This document shows, piece after piece, positions 223 through 59,479 of a stretch of DNA of 64,000 nt. Within the stretch, counting starts at the first letter, position 1, and each line of letters opens with the position of its first letter. Position numbers and translations under genes: made by a program. The stretch lies in the NCBI GenBank assembly GCA_010093485.1, contig MU001493.1, positions 2,592,937-2,656,936 on the forward strand, in the 5' to 3' direction. This stretch comes from Karstenula rhodostoma CBS 690.94 (Eukaryota; Ascomycota; Dothideomycetes; Pleosporales; Didymosphaeriaceae). The notes under the pieces are model-generated. The model did not search any database. It was not told where the DNA came from and saw nothing but the letters and a program-made list of their open reading frames with translations.

Positions 223-2036
223 CTACCTCGCAATCAAATGCCCAAAGTACTCCCTCATGAATGTCGCGCTCCGCTTCGGATACCGCGTCTTCTCCTCACT
301 CTCAAAATCCACCCACGTCACCCCAAACCGATCCGTATACCCCTTCGCCCACTCCCAGTTATCCAGCAGCGTCCACCCAAAATAGCTCCTTATATCCACA
401 CCATCTTCCTTGACTGCCCTCGCCAGCTCGCCCACATATGCGCGATAGAAGTCAATCCTGTGCACGTCGTTGAGCACGTCGTCCCCCGGGGGCGCCGACA
501 CGTGCTCGCCGCGCGCCGTGGTACCATTCTCTGTCACGAAAATGGGCGTGTGGTATCGGGCCCAGATCCAGCGCAGCAGCGCGGCGAAGCCCCAGGGAGA
601 GGTGCGCAGCCACTCTGTATCCGACTCTGCGCCGCGGCTCACGCCCTCGCTGTTGGTGTCGGACCACGCGAGGTTGCCCTTGTGGTCTTCGGGCGGGATC
701 GGCTGCCCCGGGGGTACTGCGTCGCGCACGAAGAAGGCCGTGTACGTGTTCATGCCGTAGAAGTCGCTGCTGCCGTTGACGAGCTTCTTCTCAGCCGGTG
801 AGAAGGTCGGGAGGCGCGCGCCGAGCTGGGCGCGCATGCTGGCGGGGTAGTCGCCTGGTCCGAAGACGGGGTCTGCGAACCATGCGATCTCAAACTCGAG
901 CGCGCGCTGGGCGGCGGCGATGTCGGCGGGGGAGCTGGCGTCGTAGGGCGCCGACCAGTTCCCGCTGAGGGTGATGCCAATGGTGCCGTGCTGCGTCGGT
1001 GCAAACTCCTCCTTGTACATGCGATAAACCTGCGCGTGGGACAGCAGCTGTGTATGTCCGACCTGCCTCGCGCTCAGTCAGTCAACAAAACCAGCTCGAA
1101 ACGAGCAAGCAAGTAAAACGCGGCAACGCACAATCCACGGCTCCGTGCTCGTATCCCCCTCGCTGTACTTCGCGCGGTCCGAACTCCTATTCGGCGCGTG
1201 CGCACCCCCCGCGTAGCCCGCCAGCGCATACACGCCCGGCTCATTGTACGTGATCCAGTGCCCTACTCTGTCGCCGAAGCGTTCGAAGCACACGCGAGCA
1301 TAGCGCACAAAGTCAGGGATATATCTCCCGGGGTCCAACATGCTCTTATACCTCTCCTCCAGCGCCTGCGGGACGTCCCAGTGGAACAGCGTGACAAACG
1401 GCGTTATGCCCGCCTTGAGTAGCTCGTCGATCAGATCCGAGTAGAATCCCACCCCGGCTTCGTTGACCGCGTCGTCTTTCCCGCCCAGGGGGATGATGCG
1501 GCTCCACGAGAGACTGAAGCGGTACGCGGTGACGCCGTAGCGCTTCATGAGGGCGACGTCGTCGCGGAAGAAGTCGTAGGAGCGGCATGCGTCGTCGGCT
1601 GTGCTGCCGTCGACGACGCGACCCGGCGTGTGCGCGAGCGTGTCCCAGGTGGAGGGGCCTTTGCCGGCGGTGGACCAGGCGCCTTCGATTTGGGGCGCGG
1701 CGGTTGCGTAGCTGGGGGGTTTATTTAGCGGGATGGGTTGGACGGTGGGAGCGGGTGCGGTAGGGTTGCGTGGTTTGGAGGTGGAGGGTGTGATGTGAAG
1801 ATCCGGGGTACGCTACGCTTGAGGGTACAATTGCATGCGTGGACACATGATGGTGCCTCAGTGATGTGCAAGAGAATACGAAAAATACATGATGGATGTT
1901 GTGGGGTTCTGAAGTGATGCAGGTGCAGGCGCGGGCGGGGGATAGAGTGAAGATGTACGTACCCCCAGAAGAAGTCCTTCCCCAGCGAGCCTTTCAGTCC
2001 GGCTTCCGGCGAATCGTCAAAGTCAAAGTCTGCCAT
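223..2036 (-). CDS. GH1 beta-glucosidase, intracellular
   Basis: A three-exon gene (exons 1963-2036, 1132-1711, 223-1062) gives a 497-residue protein, the usual length for fungal GH1. The N-terminus has the GH1 opening (Asp-Phe-Phe-Trp-Gly-Tyr-Ala-Thr-Ala followed by Gln-Ile-Glu-Gly-Ala). The acid/base Glu is in Thr-Tyr-Asn-Glu-Pro (about E182) and the nucleophile in Val-Thr-Glu-Asn-Gly (about E396). GH1 enzymes hydrolyse beta-linked glucosides or galactosides with retention. There is no signal peptide, so the enzyme is probably cytosolic. The start is the ATG at 2036; an upstream in-frame GTG at 2063 is unlikely. It lies downstream of, and on the same strand as, a sugar transporter, which suggests hydrolysis of imported oligosaccharides. 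Confidence 0.93.
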
Positions 2037-44858: not shown

Positions 44859-45745
44859 TTAGTTGCCCTTGCGGCCCTTGTGATGGCGACGCTGGTTCTT
44901 CTTGCCTCTTCCCTTGTGGTGACGACGTTGGTTCTTCTTGCCTTTTCCTTTGTGATGGGGCGCTCGGGCTTCAACTGCTGCGTCGTCCTCGGCATCGTCT
45001 GCGGCATCGACGTCAGCATCGTCAGCAGCGTCGTCCGCGGCGTCGTCCTCAGCGTTGTCTTCGGCGTCGTCTTCAGCCTCGGCTTCGCGACGGTTCTGCT
45101 TTCTACCCTTGTGGTGGCTAAGTGGAAAGTCAGCGAGATGGTTACTTGGATGATAAGTGGGTAGAAGTTATCATCTCAGCTATAACAGCAGAGACGCCAA
45201 CTTCGCCCTATGGCACCACGTACGGGTCACGAGTGTCGATCTCGACGGCACGGTTCTGCTTGCGCCCTTTGTGGTGACTAAATGGAAAGTCAGTGAGATG
45301 GTTACTTGGAGGACAAGTGGGTAGAAGTGATTGTCTCAGCCATGATAGCAGAGACACCAACTTCATCCCATGGCACCACGTACGGGTCACGAGTGTCTAT
45401 CTCGACGGCACGGTTCTGCTTCCTGCCTTTGTCTGAATACTGGTCAGTCGTTGAAATGCATTGGCAACGACAATGGCAGGTTACTGACGATGAGGATCAC
45501 GTGCTTCAACCTCGACTTCGCGACGGTTTTGCTTTCGGCCCTGTTGGCAATTAGTATATGCTGAAAGAGCAAGAATCTGGATCTCATACCTTGTGGTGAG
45601 GGGACCTCGCATCGATAGCGATGTCGGAGACGCTTCCGCTCACGACGTTACGGGCAGCTACAGCAGCAGCGCTCTTGCTATTGTCGCCGGTAACGACGTA
45701 AGCACTGGTGGCTCCGAGAAGGAGGGCAACGATAGCGAATCTCAT
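44859..45745 (-). CDS. Secreted repeat-peptide precursor with duplicated exons
   Basis: Five exons (45590-45745, 45489-45540, 45384-45432, 45224-45277, 44859-45117) close in frame to 189 residues. A signal peptide starts Met-Arg-Phe-Ala-Ile-Val-Ala-Leu-Leu-Leu-Gly. Then come four copies of Pro-His-His-Lys-Gly-Arg-Lys-Gln-Asn-Arg with spacers such as Ala-Val-Glu-Ile-Asp-Thr-Arg-Asp, each copy starting at or across an exon boundary. A Glu/Asp/Ala-rich acidic block of about 37 residues follows, then three further His-His-Lys-Gly units separated by Gln-Arg-Arg. Dibasic Arg-Arg sites followed by Glu-Val or Glu-Ala dipeptides recall Kex2/Ste13 processing. Exons 3 and 4 and their 106-nt introns are near copies. 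It lies about 1.1 kb from a UstYa-like gene. Function unknown; a processed or metal-binding secreted peptide is possible. Confidence 0.78.
45118..45383 (-). repeat. Tandem exon-intron duplication inside the precursor gene
   Basis: Intron 3 (45278-45383) and intron 4 (45118-45223) are both exactly 106 nt and near-identical, sharing the donor GTACGTGGTGCCAT and the branch-to-acceptor end CTGACTTTCCA. The attached exons differ at only a few positions. The unit of duplication is about 155-160 bp (exon plus intron). Most differences are transitions. Confidence 0.85.
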
Positions 45746-45888
45746 GATGAAAGAAGTCTAGCCTGTGTAAAAGAAGGTAACGAAGATAGTGGTCCTGCCG
45801 GATGAAGCTAATGAGGGGATGAGAGTGAATGAGCAGATTTGAGTACGATCAACGCCTACCGAGATGGCCTGACCGACTGACGGAGGGG

Positions 45889-45894
45889 TTTATA
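45889..45894 (-). promoter_or_regulatory. Probable TATA box of the repeat-precursor gene
   Basis: On the minus strand the sequence reads GATATAAACC, with TATAAA at 45894-45889, about 145 bp upstream of the ATG at 45745. Spacing is reasonable for a short leader. No experimental support. Confidence 0.4.
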
Positions 45895-46865
45895 TCATGG
45901 CCTTCCCTCCCGTTAGGCTGAGCAGCTGTCATCGCTTGTACTCCTGAGACGCGACACGAACGCAGAACGCATTGACACCAACCTCCAAACGAGCCTCAGG
46001 ACCAGTACATACGCACTTGCACTGCCGGCCTTGTTCAAGACAAGGCCTTTACATCCGTCAGGGGAGACAGGCAGCGCCTCGGAGCCAGACGAAGCGGGAT
46101 TCATGTTTCCAGTGCCGACACTGGAGGGTAACATTGGCTGGGCACGCTCCTTTTCGGGTGCAGGTCGGTACGAACAGCTGGCGATTCAGCAGGAACATGC
46201 ACAAGAATGAGCATCAACCTGTCGCTGTAGCCACATGCTGGCAATGCTGCTCATCGGGATCGTGTGTCCCAGTCCATATGCTGAAACAAAGCTTGTCTGC
46301 TGTTTCAGTCGTTGATTGGTCGCCAGTGGCGCATGCAAGATGCCGCTGTAGCATATGGGCAGGATGGACGCCGTCTTGGAAAAGTTGTGTCACCTGTTCG
46401 GTGTCAGGATGGTTGTCGGAGCCCCGTGTGCACGATCGCCAAGGTCACAAACAGTGGTGCGGAACGTTGAGATTCAAGACATGATTTAGCGCGCTTTTTC
46501 AAACATACTCGCTCCACCCACCAACCACGCGTCCGCGGAACAGCAGCGGAAATGCTTGTGTACGGCTCGTCTTGCCTTGCAAAGCTTAGCTTGCATTGCG
46601 TTGCCTCGTGAGCTTCACCTCTCCGCAACGCAAAGGATGGCTGCACCACTCGGAGCGATGCCGCGCTCAGGGTTAAACAATGCGCGTCACTGTCTGAGAT
46701 TCTCGCTTTTTCTATGCTCCGCCTGTTCTGCCTGACATCCTCATCCTGCATTCTCACTCTCCAGCGTTGACCGCATTCTTTCTGTTTCCTTCGCAAGTCG
46801 CCGGCCGAATCTAGTATAATCTGTTTCTATTCTACCTAATACCCCTTTGAACTTCGATTCGCACG
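45895..46865. other. Divergent gap between precursor and UstYa-like genes
   Basis: The two start codons point away from each other across about 1.1 kb (45746-46865), so upstream control elements could be shared. ORFs at 45972-46484 (plus) and 46404-46796 (minus) are not convincing. The last 150 bp are pyrimidine-rich, as in fungal promoters. Confidence 0.4.
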
Positions 46866-47763
46866 ATGCAGCCCAACACCGCCAACGCAGAGAAGCAGAC
46901 ACAAGACGATGTCGAGTACGATGACTTCAGCTCGCAGGATGGCGAGACGACGTCGTTTCTCAACAGGAATCACATCAAAGAAACCGCGAGGAGGAAGGGC
47001 ATGACTTGCCTTCTGCTGGCCAATCTCTTCGTGTTTTCCATGTCCGCGTTGACATTGGTCTGCGCTGTCTACTCTCAAAAATCGCAGTCCACCTACTCCG
47101 CAGCGAGACTAATGGACGAATTTGGAGTCTTCTGTACGTCAAGCAGTCCCAGCGCTTTCAGTGCTCGGCTAACCTCTGACAGCGCCGGCTATGAACATTG
47201 TCGAATACAAGGAAGTCGACTTCAAGCTCCCCAGCCCTGTCAACTCCTCCAAGTACGTTGGTGTGTCTCAGGAGGTCAACAACGCATGGTTAGACATTGC
47301 GTACGTTCCCGACCAGATGGTCTCTGTGGACGACTTCCCCAAACTCAAGAAGTCTATGGACTCCCTCAAGGTCTCTGATCCCAAGTCCGACGAGACGGGA
47401 TATCGTGTGGGTCTCGAGGTCTTCCACCAGCTGCAGTGCCTCAATCTCTTGAGGATGGCGACATACCCGGAGCACTACACGAAGCTCCAGTCAGACGAAA
47501 CCAGCAAGCCCGAAGAAGTGCGAGCATACCTAGGTAAGTAGTTTTTAGTTAGCTTGTAGTGAACGCAGGCTAACATCCTTCGAGATCACTGCGTAGAGGT
47601 CCTCCGCACTAAGCTGATGTGTGCGTCCGATGTCAGCGTCTTCACCTACCACGCCATGCCTGACAAGCAGGCGGCGTTACCCGACTACGATTCAAAACAT
47701 GTCTGCCGAAACTTCGACAAGATCAAGCAATGGGCAACAGACAATGCGGTGCCGGCTTTGTAG
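46866..47763 (+). CDS. UstYa/DUF3328-like membrane protein with altered HxxHC motifs
   Basis: Three exons (46866-47133, 47183-47533, 47585-47763) give 265 residues. An acidic cytosolic N-terminus is followed by one TM helix (about residues 45-68), as in UstYa proteins. The conserved parts include Tyr-Val-Gly-Val-Ser-Gln-Glu-Val-Asn-Asn-Ala-Trp and Phe-His-Gln-Leu-Gln-Cys-Leu-Asn. A C-terminal Asp-His-Cys-Val-Glu-Val-Leu-Arg follows, leading to Leu-Met-Cys-Ala-Ser-Asp. In active UstYa-type oxidases of dikaritin RiPP pathways both motifs read His-x-x-His-Cys; here the first has Gln for the second His, and the second lacks the first His. It may be a divergent or non-catalytic member. It is flanked by two secreted-peptide genes. 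Confidence 0.88.
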
Positions 47764-48472
47764 ACGTGTGGAGCACGATCATATCGGAGACGCTGCACAT
47801 AGCCCACGGAAGAAGGTGGCATGGAATAACGTAGCCGAACGGCTTATTTGATACCCAACCATCAATACACTGAGAATTTCTTACCATCTCTTGCATCTGC
47901 TACCAACCTGTCCGCCCCGCTCACTTGTCTCCTTTCCACTTCTCCACACTTACGTTGCTCATGCATCATTTATTCCTGGAATCTAATTCCTAACCATCAC
48001 CCACAATCTACGTTTCTCGAAGCGCGAATGCTGCAGGCCAAGCTGTTTGAACCGCACTTGGCGTTTAGCAGGCACGTTTCACGCATGGCATATTGACAAA
48101 CGTCTCAAGGAACCCGGACGCAACAACATCTTAGTAGAACCGTGCGCGTGGATACAAGTCCTCGGATGTTTGCTGCCCGGGCTTGTCGCTCGCACTGTGG
48201 ATGGAATGACGAAAACAACACGCATAAACATGGTTTTTTTTTGTTCGGTTCTTGGAGTCTTGGTAGGAGGGGACGGAAAGGGCAGACACCGAGCATCAAG
48301 CTGACACGCCGAGGTTAGGGTGGGGACGCATCACTGCTCATGAGTTTGTGCAGGTAGATTTGTTTCAATTATCGTTTTCTCTTCCTCCCAAACCCGTTGT
48401 AAGTTTATGTACAGCTGCCAAATTCGTTCAAAGGAGGGTGCGGCGTCTTGTAGACAACTTTGTGTCTGTTTT
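47764..48472. other. Intergenic gap between convergent genes
   Basis: About 700 bp lie between the UstYa-like stop and the six-cysteine protein stop. It is pyrimidine-rich at 47880-48010 and has a T-run at 48233-48241. No gene was seen. Confidence 0.4.
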
Positions 48473-48960
48473 TTAACACTACGCGGGTCAGTGACGCCTA
48501 CACAACCATGTGTGGATTCGTGCAGTGCGGGTCCAGGAATAACACCGTGGGCAACTTACAGCCAGCGTGGGCGATGCGCAGCCACCCTGCGCTTGATGGA
48601 AGCAAGCAATATTCAAAAAGTATTTGTACTCGCACAACTGCATGCGTCAGTCCATGGGCTTCAATCCCGCCGTACGCTCGTCTTCTCTTCATATTCTCCT
48701 TGCCCGTAATGCTCGCTTTGTTCTTGACTCACCTCCTTAGCATTCATCTGTCCGGCCGGAATGATGGGCTGCTGGCAGTTGCACGGCAACTTGAAAGTGG
48801 GCGTGGGCTCCTTGTGGTGGTTGTGATGGCGCGTCCTCGTTGCATTGTCTGTGGGAGCTGCGAGGACGGACGAGAGCGCGGAGGTGACGGCTTCGACCTT
48901 GGCCCATGGGAAGGGCGAGGCGGCGATGGCGCTTGCGAAGACGAGGAGTGCGAATCGCAT
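48473..48960 (-). CDS. Small secreted six-cysteine protein (effector candidate)
   Basis: Three exons (48733-48960, 48560-48637, 48473-48478) give 103 residues. The last exon is 6 nt and adds the final Cys before the stop. A signal peptide starts Met-Arg-Phe-Ala-Leu-Leu-Val-Phe-Ala-Ser-Ala. A pro-region with Ala-Pro-Thr-Asp-Asn-Ala-Thr and a His-rich segment (His-His-Asn-His-His-Lys) leads to a Cys-rich end: Cys-Asn-Cys, then Leu-Cys-Glu-Tyr-Lys-Tyr, Ala-Cys, Gly-Gly-Cys and Ala-Cys. Six cysteines fit three disulfides. The leader resembles that of the repeat precursor 2.7 kb away on the same strand, with the UstYa-like gene between them. Function unknown. Confidence 0.72.
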
Positions 48961-50267: not shown

Positions 50268-50313
50268 ATAGTACCGACCGTACGAAGGTCATAGTACCGA
50301 CCGTACGAAGGTC
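50268..50313. repeat. Perfect 23-bp tandem duplication
   Basis: The unit ATAGTACCGACCGTACGAAG plus GTC occurs twice with no mismatch (50268-50290, 50291-50313). Each unit contains the palindromic CGTACG. It lies about 330 bp upstream of the next gene and could be a duplicated regulatory site or a simple replication slip. Confidence 0.7.
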
Positions 50314-53939: not shown

Positions 53940-55463
53940 ATTGGGCTTGTGTCAGTATCGGGTACACACAGCGTGGACCCTCCAGGATCGTGATCGCGAA
54001 GGCGCATTGCAGAACGTTGAGTACTGCTCGGCACACCATCGTGGACGCGCCGAGTGATGACGAAAGCGGCGAGTCATGTCATGATTATGTAACCCAAATA
54101 CATGATTAGGTGGGCCTTCCAGCCCGCGACATTGACCATCATTTACATTCATTTCTTCATCCTCAGCTCTTTTCACAAATGGAGTGTCAGATGCTCAGCC
54201 ACGGCCACGGCCAGTTAGGTGTAAGCGACTACGACGTTGCGAAATGTAGAACGCTCATGGCATCCACGATGCCAACCGCATGGTATGTAGATTTGAACCT
54301 GGACAAAATTCTATGAGTACGAAAGCAGCAACTTGATCTTTAGTGACATGTTGCCCTGATCGGACAACTAAGAGATACTTCGCAGGTCTACCGCCGTCTG
54401 GACACCACGAAGCGCACTGAACCAGTCCCCAGCAAGCAAAAGTTTCGCCATCTCGTATCTCCGATGAGCGTAATGCCGGAGACGATAAGCCATTTCGTTG
54501 CGAAGTTACTGACGTCGCAAAGTACCTCACAGACTTTTGACATGTGCGAAAGGTTAGTTAAGACTGTCTCTGGAAGTGTGGGACAAATAGAAGAGCTCTG
54601 CTACTCCACAGAAGAGCTGTGTGTGCCCAACCGTGATACTCCGGGACATTCTGGACAAAGGGATGTTGCTGATTTGTGTTCCCCAGGTCGTGATCTCACT
54701 CGCTCTGAGCGCATGTCGAGCTTCTCACACTGCACAGAATTGCCCGAATCTTAGATCGCTCACATGAATACGGAACCTCCAATCGGTGGTGCTCATGCCT
54801 TATGGTTGCATTGATCTGGGCATCCGAGTTATTCGCCCTTGGCAGTACTTGTTGAGGAATTTCCGTTTTTCGCACGTCAGTAGCGGCGAGTCCTGACGGA
54901 CAGCAATGATGGTGTGAGACAAGAGATCTGGAACAGAAAAATAACACTACAGGTACTTTACCACGTTTACTTGTTGGTACCAAATACAATTGGGTAAAAG
55001 TATGGCTTGTAAAAGCCGCACTCGCTATGCCTACATGTCGTACAACAGGAGCGTGCCATGTCATGGTAGCTTTCGAGGTTCCAGAAGCACACTATCCGCG
55101 GCGTTTACCTGCTTCCGATGCGACATGCAGGAGGTGTTACTTGGACACAGTATCATACTGCGCTGGTATATTAGCTATGGGCATGGAGAAGTGGTGATTT
55201 TTGTGTACGCTTCTTCCCACCTCTACTTCGCAGCAGTGAAACTTAGATATCGAGGAAGTATACGATTTATCGTCCGACGAAGCAGAACATATGGCATCTG
55301 CGCTAAAGGAAACGCTCTCGAGTGCGGAATGTCGCCCAGAAATCGGCATCCCTTCGTCTTGTTGGACGAGCAACATTCCAGCGCGTCAACAACAGCCTTT
55401 CAAAAGGAAGGGTTATTCAGCCAGGGTCTCAGTCATGGCGATTGGATCTCAATCGTAGTCAAG
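53940..55463. other. Intergenic region with open frame upstream of the M60 gene
   Basis: About 1.5 kb. The reading frame of the downstream peptidase stays open from 54990, but the 158 upstream codons start with low-quality sequence and precede a clear signal peptide, so they are taken as leader. No other gene is credible. Confidence 0.4.
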
Positions 55464-58400
55464 ATGAAATGGAAGATCGGACTTTCCGCTTTCATTCTTT
55501 TCGCGGATAATTCTTACGTTGCAGCCATCGATCATCTCTCAGTTCCCACATCAGATCGGATCGGCCATGTCGAAGAACCTGTTCCAGAGCCATTGCGTCT
55601 TGCAGCCGTATTTATGAAGCACCGTTCGACCACGAAAAGTTCCGTAAAGGCCTCCAGCACTGCAGCAAAAGATCAGCACTCGTCTGGAAGGACACCAACG
55701 TCGAGAAAAAGGGCGACCAGCTCAACCTCTGTCTCAGCCTTGGGCATCAAGGGCACGCCAAAGTCTTCTAGTTTGACCACCAAAGTTACATCGACCGCCA
55801 AAACTCCAGCTTTGCTACGGTCCGTGCCAGAATCAAGTACCAAATCTACTGCGAAACCTACTGCGAAATCCACTGCTAAATCCACCGCGAAATCCACCGC
55901 GAAGTTAACTGCGAAATCAACCGCGATATCTACGGTGAAGATCACTGCCAAATCAACTGCATCAACCTCGAAAATTGCTTCTGTCAACCCACGCTCAAGT
56001 TCGCGGGTGTTCGCAAGCTTTGAGGCCTCATCAAGTCTGGTCCAATCAAGTGGCGAGGGAATTGCCATCTTGGAGGCCCCTTTGACATCTTCTCTTCGTG
56101 TCCAACCTTCTTCAACTAGGAAAGTCAGACGTTCTGCATTATTGAATCGCTCGTCGACAAATGCACAGCAAAGCTCTCCTTCTTCGGCACCACTCCAGTC
56201 TCGCCTGGCCATTGCACTACAGACGGGGAACGAAGGAGGCGTCACCGAGAAGGAAATTCTCAACGCTCTTCCAAATGCGCTGGTTTCACGACAATCGTTG
56301 GGTTACAAGCTACTTCCCAACGATGTTCCTATTACTTGGCTCTTGGATGCGAACACTGCATTTGTAGAAGATCCAGGAACCCTTCAAAACATTATGTTTG
56401 CAAACAAGAACCTTAAGCTTGGCGACTTTCCTAACAACTCCTCTTTAGCTGCTGCCGGATCGGCTCCAGGTTCTGACACGAGAATGGCATACTTCGGTGG
56501 CAATCCTTTCGTTACCAACGATGGAGGCACCTATTATCCCTGGAAACCGGTTAGCAACCCGGGCATGAGGACGTTTAACACAAATATTGTCACCTGGCTC
56601 CTCGGACTGCCCACCGGTACACGTGGAGATGCTATCTCAGCGAAGTCTAATATCATACTATCGGGGCTGAAAGACACTGCCGAAAATTTCACACGCACTG
56701 CACTCTCTCAGTTGTTTCCCAACATCCGCATCAACGGTGGTAGAATTGGGAACAATGTCTGTGATTTTACAGGAAGCAGTAACCCTTGCCTTGAGGGCGC
56801 CAGCCTTCTCATTGTTGGAGATAATCGCAATCCTGGAGATGATGCTGTTGCCAACGCCGTGGTCGGAGCTTACAGGAAAGGTTTGCCACTATTGGTTATG
56901 ACAGAAGACGGCAACTATAGCCCGGATTCTTGGAAGATTACTGAACAGCTAGGCTTGACACTTGGCCAGAATTTCTTTGAGGGACAAAAGGTAATCGACA
57001 ACTCGAAAAAAAGCTATCAAGCCCCTAGCAGTGTCATCCATGACGACTTCCGCACCGACGTTCTGCAAGTACACTCTTCCCTCAGCAACGATCCACTCCG
57101 GCCTTCAGACTACGCAGTGTGCATATCTCGGGACGGGTTGTTGACCCAGACTATACGTATGGGAGAATGCGTGGAATCTCCTCCCAGTGGAGTGGCCGCA
57201 CATGCGCTTCCCTACTTCGGTGCAATCCACAGATTACAGAACGCCATTAACAGTATCTCTTCTAACGGTCTAGATATCTTCAAGACGACCAACGGTGTCA
57301 ACACCCAAACCTTGCGCCTCCTGACTCTTTTGGCCAACAAGATCCGAGTAGGCCCACAGGGCATGTCTACGGACACCGCTGTTGCAATCAAATATCCCAT
57401 CAATACTAGAACCGATGGCGTGGCTGTGACCAGGGCTTTGTTTGCAGATTGGATTGTCCCCATGAGCACAACATCAACTCCGCGAGCCCTGGACTTTGGT
57501 TCCTTGTGGTGCCCCGATAACGTAGTCTACGAAGCGGGCAACTGCACGGCCCCCTCCTTCCCAGGTTTTTCCTCCTATCAGCTGGTCTTGAATTCGACGC
57601 TCAATGACGAGTGGACGTCCACAGGCTACACTCAATACCCTGGTCAAGCGGCCACGATTACACTGACCAACGATCCTGGCATACCTATTGCTGTGAGAAC
57701 GTTTGCAATTCGAAATGCCGATGGCCGCACAGCGGAGTACAGCGCATCAGGAAAGTCACTGTACAATCGTCCCCAGTTTCCTGTCAGCGTTTGGATCCCA
57801 CTGAAACCTGGAGTACCCACGGTGATGAATTCACCCTACGGCGGCCCACTGTATATCAGTTTGTACGGAACAGATTTGACTAGCCCACGGCAAGCATCTT
57901 TCCTATTTCAGAACGTGAGCAAACATTTTGCTGTCCTTGACGCCAGTAGCGACAACGCTCTCAAACAACTGGCTCAAGATCTGATGAAATCGCCAGCGTA
58001 CTGGGTCGACATAAAGGGGTCCGGCTTTGAGCTCCACGTTCCTGCAGGGAAGCTCGCACAGTCACTTGCACCAAGAGGCATAGACATAGGCGTTGGCCGT
58101 AGGGTCTACTACAACACGACCACTACTGGACTTGGCCAGCTTATGATCGACTACAAGACAAGCTGGGCCGAGAGAGAGTATCGCATGGCAGGGCTCAAGA
58201 TCGACAGGGAGCCTATGACAACATCACTGCCTCTCGAGGATCAGCGACTCTGCCAATTTCTCCGGTGGGACTGCATGAATGAGTCTATACATCGCATAAC
58301 TGAGATCCAGCATTTGACCTACGACACGTACGCTGCTTGTGGCCAACTATGCTCAGGGAATCCCATCACTTCCAGTACAGTACCAGCGCCAATCGCTTGG

Positions 58401-59479
58401 GGCGAAGGGCACGAGTTGGGGCACAATCTACAGAGGCAAGCGCTTGATATCTACTGGCCAGACACGAGCTTAGGAAAAGCGTCAGAAGCTATCAATACCT
58501 GGGCCACTTACTCCATACGGAGCACCGAGGTGTCCAACAACATCTTTCCTTACTTCAACCAATGGACATACTTCCGTCTCACACTTCCCACCCGCTTTGG
58601 CACCGGCATAGACGATGGCCCACTGCGTCGTCACGTACGATAATCCACACGACCACTTCTCACCAGGCGCTAACAGACAAACAGGACGTTCAAGATTTCA
58701 CCGTATTGTTCAGCGCACGTCAATCGGCGTATCTGAAGCTGCAGCAGAACGGCCAGAGCGTCGTTCTGGACCACACATGTAAAGTGCTCGGCAGTTTTCC
58801 AATCGGCACCCGCTCCGATATTATGCTTGCAGATGCAGTCTGGGGCACCAACGGCTACGCCGTGAATAATGGCGAGCGCTTAAGCTTCTATATCGCACTC
58901 CCGCAGATTCTACAGGGAAAAACAATGGCAAACAATGTACCTCTCGCCGACGGAAGGAACATATACACGCTCATGTACCAGGCTGCGCGTCTGTTTTCCG
59001 CTTACGCTACAAATGCCGCAACTTGGCAAGCACGTGCGGCCTCCTTGGGGTTGAGTCGCTATGCCTACACCAACGATGCTGTATATGGTGCGGGCAAGAC
59101 AGTTAACGACATGATTGGGAACGACTTCCTGGTTGTGGTGCTGTCACTGATCACTCGCTATGACTTTCGTCCATACTTCGCCGCGCACGGCGTTTTCTAC
59201 ACCTCGCTCGCGAACACACAGGTCCTGGCGAACGCTCCGAGCGGTGGCTACAAGGTCCTAGGATCGCCACATGTGGTGCTGGGAGATCAATATCCAAAGA
59301 CGAACCTAAGTGTGACTCCGGTAGGGGGGGCTGGAGCGTATGTTTCTCGCAACGTTGGCGTGGATATTGCAAACGCGGCGACAACCTGGCCAGGAGCTGA
59401 CAATAATTTGGACGGGGCGCCGGAGAACCTGGTGGGGTTCCATCCGAGGAACTGTCCGGGCGTTACGGTAGGCGCTTGA
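55464..59479 (+). CDS. M60/IMPa-like secreted zinc metallopeptidase
   Basis: Two exons (55464-58634, 58685-59479) with a 50-nt phase-0 intron give 1321 residues. A signal peptide opens Met-Lys-Trp-Lys-Ile-Gly-Leu. A Ser/Thr/Ala/Lys-rich stalk with Ser-Thr-Ala-Lys repeats (about residues 125-170) comes next. A globular N-terminal part (about 265-500) resembles the IMPa-type N-domain. The catalytic region has Gly-Glu-Gly-His-Glu-Leu-Gly-His-Asn (H983, E984, H987) and a candidate third ligand Glu at 1008, 21 residues on, fitting the M60 HExxH-x(8-28)-E gluzincin pattern. The family cleaves O-glycosylated, mucin-type proteins in bacteria. A fungal role in degrading host or competitor glycoproteins is inferred. 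Bacterial origin is possible. Confidence 0.8.
55835..55975 (+). repeat. Coding minisatellite (Ser-Thr-Ala-Lys units) in the M60 peptidase
   Basis: About ten imperfect 12-bp units of the type AAATCCACCGCG encode Ser-Thr-Ala-Lys repeats. The stalk is basic and probably O-glycosylated, linking the signal peptide to the folded part or to the wall. Copy number could vary between strains by slippage. Confidence 0.75.

Follow-up and report, generated by a model that had tools for sequence, protein, structure and literature searches.

A repeat-peptide precursor with a predicted Kex2 and Ste13 cutting grammar beside a UstYa-like gene with altered copper motifs in Karstenula rhodostoma

The repeat precursor and its divergent neighbour

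We examined a 64-kb stretch of contig MU001493.1 from Karstenula rhodostoma CBS 690.94, here called the window, in which a gene for a protein with repeated HHKG units, referred to as the HHKG precursor, lies head to head with a gene for a UstYa/DUF3328-like protein (Table 1). The original prediction had placed a secreted repeat precursor with duplicated exons next to a UstYa-like middle gene at this locus, and these elements were all recovered. The precursor gene is genuine and is read from the minus strand, where a five-exon GT-AG model gives four copies of PHHKGRKQNR, and the protein of the middle gene on the plus strand matched PF11807 with an E-value of 6e-51 (173.8 bits, against a cut-off of 25). 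The interval between the two start codons could possibly serve as a promoter common to both genes.

All four introns of the precursor gene follow the GT-AG rule, with a CTRAY branch point 10 to 12 nt from the 3′ end. Exons 2, 3, and 4 each encode approximately one repeat unit, and the 160-bp tandem repeat contains 2.1 copies with 87% matches. The 2 duplicated exons differ at 4 of 49 bases, all of them silent when the codons were read by eye, and the introns within the duplicated units differ at 14 of 106 bases. In the translation, the four PHHKGRKQNR copies are followed by PHHKGKGKKNQRR, HHKGRGKKNQRR, and HHKGRKGN. The N-terminus is hydrophobic, MRFAIVALLLGATSA, and resembles a signal peptide as judged by eye rather than by a predictor; similar starts were seen in the related proteins P0001, P0086, P0087, and P0101. 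It was also noted that D and E account for 22 of 41 residues in an acidic stretch. Codon usage gave weak support to the gene (a fraction of 0.06 of random windows reached the same score), and such scoring has too little power to settle the case of small exons.

A protein search returned 4 relatives of the precursor, and with a profile built from five sequences, at least 27 of 7,996 scored candidates reached E ≤ 10. All 27 profile matches were retained, including 7 with E > 0.001 (P0101 to P0107). The sources named among the listed matches were Mytilinidion, Lophium, Didymella, Parastagonospora, Neocucurbitaria, Pyrenophora, Paraphaeosphaeria, Pestalotiopsis, Seiridium, and Pseudogymnoascus. 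Five of the proteins (P0001, P0086, P0087, P0090, and P0101) resemble, by eye, unspliced predictions, each continuing into an intron at a comparable position. They thereby support the exon layout of the precursor and suggest that intron read-through explains why gene callers have missed the family.

Table 1. Features of the locus and a second HHKG precursor gene in the same genome
Feature	Position	Strand	Description
HHKG repeat precursor gene	45745-44859	minus	189 aa, 5 exons; ATG at 45745, stop at 44859; spliced model and homologs in other fungi
Precursor exons 1-5	45745-45590, 45540-45489, 45432-45384, 45277-45224, 45117-44859	minus	GT-AG splicing, no internal stops
Putative signal peptide	45701..45745	minus	First ~15 residues of the precursor; translation judged by eye
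Tandem 160-bp duplication	45090..45432	minus	Exons 3 and 4 with introns 3 and 4; each exon encodes one repeat unit
Interval between start codons	45746..46865		1,120 bp; precursor and UstYa-like genes divergent, head to head
UstYa/DUF3328-like gene	46866-47763	plus	265 aa, 3 exons; Pfam PF11807
UstYa-like exons	46866-47133, 47183-47533, 47585-47763	plus	
First copper motif	47425..47439	plus	HQLQC in place of HxxHC
Second copper motif	47527..47592	plus	YLDHC in place of HxxHC; split by intron 2
Small secreted-protein-like gene (doubtful)	48488..48960	minus	Exon 1 48960-48733; exon 2 start uncertain
Second HHKG precursor gene	Contig C10, L024 (G000:C10:477500-486500), about 4510-4084	minus	

A predicted cutting grammar shared by the family

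The window protein and its 27 profile matches formed a set of 28 sequences, in which we identified 87 HHK-type sites in 77 distinct contexts (P0101 yielded no site). An Arg lies upstream in 76 of these contexts, separated from the HHK core by a spacer of 0 (24 contexts), 2 (41), or 4 (11) residues. There were 14 distinct non-empty spacers (AP, DP, EP, SP, DPAP, DPEA, DPEP, DPSP, EPAP, EPEA, EPEP, NAEP, SPEP, and VALEP), 13 of which are made purely of X-P or X-A dipeptides, and in 76 of the 77 contexts 0, 1, or 2 such dipeptides directly follow the predicted cut site. The P4 position of the cut residue was L, I, V, or M in 63 of the 77 contexts, as compared to 39 of 154 other Arg residues (Fisher 2e-16), although this P value overstates independence, since the repeats are homologous and the contexts are not independent of each other. 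Ten contexts were dibasic, and 8 were neither dibasic nor had L, I, V, or M at P4. In the window precursor itself, 5 of the 7 units follow R-SP, R-DP, or R-AP, and in the 2 C-terminal copies HHKG comes immediately after RR, such that two predicted processing routes (R-X-P and RR) would give the same new N-terminus, HHKG.

The pattern, in which X-P and X-A spacers follow Arg, reads as a grammar for Kex2 and then Ste13, a dipeptidyl aminopeptidase. The motif LxxR has been accepted as an expanded Kex2 motif (PMC8528282; PMC10942635), XP or XA following Kex2 sites is the signature of Ste13 (PMC6339444), and removal of XA and XP from a Kex2-processed repeat protein (KEP) has been observed by mass spectrometry in Pichia (PMC9769878). 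In the genome, P_proprotein (Kex2-type) was matched once and DPPIV_N three times, twice strongly and once more weakly. Kex2 or a similar protease would cut after Arg at [IV]xxR (IDAR, VEAR, IDTR) and RR sites, a Ste13-type dipeptidyl aminopeptidase would strip X-Pro (SP, DP, or AP) where present, and Kex1 would trim basic residues at the C-terminus. The predicted products, all of which start with HHKG, are HHKGRKQN in four copies, HHKGKGKKNQ, HHKGRGKKNQ, and HHKGRKGN. Between the units, acidic stretches would act as spacers that offset the charge of the peptides, and the free His-His end would probably be the working end.

The possibility that the protein is not cut, and instead works whole as a secreted acidic and basic repeat protein at the cell wall or directed at a host, would be in line with the acidic stretch and with sites that are mostly monobasic. 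We consider it improbable, since the spacer grammar of 0, 2, or 4 residues in the form of X-P or X-A would then have no obvious reason, and the 2 C-terminal copies that directly follow RR also speak against it.

Like the KEPs described in two surveys (PMC6339444, PMC7329392), the HHKG precursor is predicted to be secreted and has repeated units with Kex2-type sites between them. Counted by eye, the 189-aa precursor has four RR sites, which places it within the KEP definition of at least four fragments by Le Marquer 2019, and the near-identical repeats between Kex2 sites that this definition also includes amount to seven HHKG units if [LIVM]xxR sites are counted. It differs from the surveyed proteins in having one repeat per exon and in that its sites are mostly [LIVM]xxR, whereas the surveys are described as using KR/RR/KK (Le Marquer) and KR/KK/RK/RR (Umemura). 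Ascomycete alpha-pheromone precursors are likewise cut by Kex2 and lose X-P or X-A dipeptides to Ste13, but the HHKG core is cationic and the PYG[LM]P[IV]G or two-Cys Dothideomycete cores (PMC6339444) are absent from the translation; moreover, a DUF3328 gene adjoins the HHKG precursor, which is reported to be almost never the case at pheromone genes (PMC7329392). The motif SPPHKT of Pezizomycotina KEPs (PMC6339444) also has a short Pro-His-Lys core, with PPHKT there and PHHKG here, a comparison made by motif letters alone. A literature search for PHHKG-type strings, judged by titles and abstract openings, gave no fungal peptide. As far as sequences can tell, the HHKG precursors are a real peptide-precursor family that belongs to a known precursor class, rather than a proven new pathway.

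The UstYa-like protein and its copper ligands

The codon usage of the UstYa-like gene was matched by a fraction of 0.03 of random windows. A search with the protein returned 80 proteins at E ≤ 1e-20, the top match being 90% identical, and the five best matches came from Paraphaeosphaeria (two), Paraconiothyrium, Didymosphaeria, and Bimuria, which places the fungus close to Didymosphaeriaceae. With identities of 83% to 91% between genera, the protein appears to be maintained by selection in a role other than that of a normal copper oxidase. The DUF3328 protein CctR is a binuclear copper enzyme with the motif HxxHC(x)nHxxHC, in which alanine in place of a conserved His or Cys abolished activity (PMC12435403), and the double HxxHC has been described as a marker of dikaritin DUF3328 proteins (PMC12048977).

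To compare the copper ligands, we aligned the window protein with 50 of the 80 matches, resulting in 51 rows. All six ligands were present in 35 of the rows, at least one was replaced in 15, and P0055 was truncated. The window protein and its five nearest relatives, P0005 to P0009, all lack the second His of the first motif and the first His of the second motif; the motif SQDHC in P0008 is perhaps the result of a gene-model error. Nine further rows lack at least one ligand, namely P0010, P0014, P0015, P0029, P0032, P0033, P0034, P0047, and P0049, in which one to four ligand histidines have been lost in varied combinations. The varied ligand loss among the orthologs suggests repeated loss. Among 20 stretches around other UstYa genes in the same genome, the first motif was intact in 10 of 10 recognised cases and the second in 17 of 18, according to a pattern search that was sorted by eye; the search did not return both motifs for each of the 20, and rows that lay off the UstYa genes were excluded.

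An AlphaFold2 prediction for P0005, the P. minitans ortholog (90% identical), based on a 42-sequence alignment, had a mean predicted local distance difference test (pLDDT) score of 79, and the model placed the two copper motifs on two helices. A fold search of the PDB gave nothing at E ≤ 0.001, and a sequence search of the PDB gave nothing at E ≤ 1.

Genomic association and possible functions of the peptides

The 44.3-Mb genome contains 59 UstYa matches, which we grouped into 43 loci, and the 20 stretches mentioned above, each of about 10 kb, span 22 of the 42 other loci. In 9 of these stretches, hits of a script for repeated six-residue words were judged by eye to be classical KEPs, their units containing aromatic residues and their sites being KR or KK. 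The script missed the precursor in the window, whose units are split by introns, and 9 of 20 is therefore a lower bound. In this sense, the pairing of a secreted repeat precursor with an adjacent UstYa gene, as proposed in the original prediction, recurs in the genome. The HHKG pattern had no site in the 20 stretches. We noted that L029, L030, L031, L032, L037, L040, L043, L044, and L048 contain precursors with Tyr, Trp, or Phe units near UstYa and are candidate loci for dikaritin-type ribosomally synthesised and post-translationally modified peptides (RiPPs).

Dikaritins such as ustiloxin, phomopsin, asperipin-2a, and victorin also derive from repeat precursors adjoining a UstYa/DUF3328 gene, and a dikaritin-like pathway in which His or Lys residues of the HHKG peptides, rather than Tyr, are oxidised or crosslinked by the UstYa-like protein would agree with the 9 stretches. 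It would also agree with the survey of Umemura 2020, in which 57 of 64 members of the di-histidine type G-3 and 45 of 49 of the di-histidine type G-8 had a DUF3328 gene no more than 15 genes away (PMC7329392), and with a pair of proteins from another genome: the UstYa ortholog P0053, with intact motifs, and the HHKG precursor P0091 are both from JGI and both have a longest contig of 21,642 bases, from which we infer that they lie on one contig. However, the HH content in the same survey was hardly different with and without DUF3328 (5.7% and 3.9%; PMC7329392), the predicted peptides contain no Y, W, or F, as the original prediction had rightly held against a dikaritin, and HQLQC and YLDHC depart from the double HxxHC motif, in which the alanine variants of CctR were inactive. 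No second UstYa match was found in the window, and a Pfam scan of 20 flanking open reading frames (ORFs), in which introns were ignored, gave no tyrosinase, P450, methyltransferase, or S41 peptidase. The scanned ORFs instead matched CAP/Srv2, protein kinase, pfkB kinase, RNase III-like, gamma-tubulin complex protein, aminotransferase, and acyltransferase. One DUF3328 protein suffices in the asperipin-2a pathway (PMC7329392). The broken copper motifs and the lack of typical RiPP genes among the scanned ORFs make ordinary UstYa oxidation of the HHKG peptides unlikely here, and we regard a dikaritin-like pathway in general as unlikely as well.

One further HHKG precursor gene, on contig C10 (Table 1), was the only second one recognised among the matches in the genome itself. 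After splicing by eye it has two HHKG units, at SLIAR/HHKG and KR/HHKG, with the second His-His split by an intron, and it resembles P0105 of P. minitans. Some 199 kb separate it from the closest UstYa match, which weakens the pairing of the two genes, counts against the dikaritin-like pathway, and fits with peptides that need no UstYa protein. Other weak matches in the genome were not retained as HHKG paralogs: L020 is an acidic stretch, L019 was set aside with a view limited to its first 60 bases, and L007 is a different repeat precursor with the core WYYKGHQRR. The latter (1396-1839, minus strand, G000:C23) has PTADWYYKGHQRR units, and no UstYa match was listed on C23.

The lone gene on C10 would also be expected if the precursor were a KEP that had come to lie by chance beside a UstYa-like gene with an unrelated conserved job. 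The conservation of the UstYa gene over many Pleosporales genera and the 59 matches in the genome are in line with such a coincidence, as is the finding that, among the matches listed, no HHKG protein came from several genera that have the ortholog, such as Bipolaris, Alternaria, Exserohilum, and Ascochyta. On the other hand, a random gene would adjoin a UstYa gene in well under 1% of cases (an estimate from ~43 loci and an assumed ~14,000 genes), the apparent pairing of P0053 and P0091 concerns the same ortholog, and gene callers readily overlook short precursors with several exons. Chance proximity is not our preferred explanation, and we hold it to be rather unlikely.

The most probable reading, to which we assign a probability of about 0.62, is that the precursor is a secreted KEP that releases seven cationic HHKG peptides, and that the UstYa-like protein is probably an old partner, which would not be expected to oxidise them as UstYa proteins usually do. 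It leads from the gene model, the repeat grammar, the family, and the motif loss read in the sequences to a presumed cleavage, trimming, peptide function, and role of the neighbour. In this lineage, half of the histidines that serve as copper ligands are gone from the neighbour, which may be an old partner of the precursor. Although the motif has been lost in the lineage of the window, HHKGKGKKNQRR is common to Neocucurbitaria P0095 and the window, which argues against a copper-dependent role, the precursors alone having been compared. As for the function of the peptides, binding of a metal (copper or zinc) outside the cell through the free His-His end is our leading guess, though short of an even chance; receptor signalling is nearly as plausible, antimicrobial action is less so, and any other function would be the least expected. 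A further reading, as a whole very improbable, combines secreted metal-binding HHKG peptides, with an exact His-His N-terminus set by Kex2 and Ste13, with binding of these peptides by the half-degenerate UstYa partner, such that their two histidines would fill the two missing ligand positions to form a shared copper site.

Several observations weigh against the preferred reading of a processed KEP with an old partner, besides the non-independence of the contexts and the lone gene on C10. The profile was built on such units and is biased towards matches arranged in the same way. The spacer VALEP, in one context of P0097, departs from the (X-P/A)n rule, and the single Arg sites with neither a dibasic site nor L, I, V, or M at P4 comprise six of the form C-[VA]-R (Mytilinidion/Lophium type) and one in P0097. 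Most sites have a single Arg rather than KR or RR, and Leu at P4, as in the published motif, was found in only 29 of the 77 contexts. The five single-Arg sites in the window have I or V at P4, beyond the published motif, and cutting by Kex2 itself is therefore not certain. Metal binding is a chemical guess from the N-terminal His-His, and X-Pro-His is unable to form the usual amino-terminal copper and nickel (ATCUN) site before trimming.

The third gene at the locus had been predicted to encode a secreted six-Cys protein within a three-gene pathway. Its exon 1 is plausible, but the Cys count depends on the splice choice: a start of exon 2 at 48586 gives 6 Cys, with the sole branch-point candidate 60 nt away, and an alternative acceptor at 48637 gives 8 Cys, with a branch point at 9 nt. 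The fraction of random windows with a codon usage score as high was 0.02 for exon 1 and 0.73 for exon 2. The protein had no Pfam match at E ≤ 1, and the genome contained no clear second copy (next best E 0.097). It was also noted that an Arg is followed by His-His in this protein (TRTR-HHNHHKE), without the [LIVM]xxR or HHKG pattern. We found no evidence that ties the third gene to the pair, the three protein searches having covered the precursor and the UstYa-like protein, and the three-gene pathway was rejected. Elsewhere in the window, a long ORF at 54945-58640 gave weak matches to immunomodulating metalloprotease/M60, all below the Pfam cut-offs, and a perfect 23-bp tandem repeat in two copies lies at 50268-50313.

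The suggestion that the locus represents a new class was too strong, since di-histidine KEPs near DUF3328 genes had already been counted by Umemura 2020 (PMC7329392). The types G-8 (#15) and G-3 (#6) in that survey likewise have a di-histidine accompanied by Pro and a DUF3328 neighbour, and the HHKG precursors and G-8 are possibly the same family, as compared by description and genera. Among the 18 genera of G-8, 4 have an HHKG match and 8 a UstYa match, and 10 occur in either list. Against such an identity, the other 8 genera are in neither list, and G-9, with DUF3328 in 0 of 48 members, also shares genera with the matches, including Pestalotiopsis. The text of the survey on G-8 and G-3 describes no HHKG core, Ste13 grammar, or loss of the copper motif. 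To the original prediction, the present analysis adds the grammar of processing and the loss of copper ligands.

Most KEPs have no known function (PMC9769878). For this peptide family of several fungal genera, the grammar offers a testable cutting rule, [LIVM]xxR, then X-P/X-A, and then HHKG, from which exact masses are predicted. Because both KEP surveys confined their cutting to dibasic sites, families such as the HHKG precursors are easily under-counted. Finally, the natural UstYa orthologs in which at least one copper ligand is replaced (15 of 51 rows) provide a contrast by which a role of DUF3328 proteins without the copper site may be studied.

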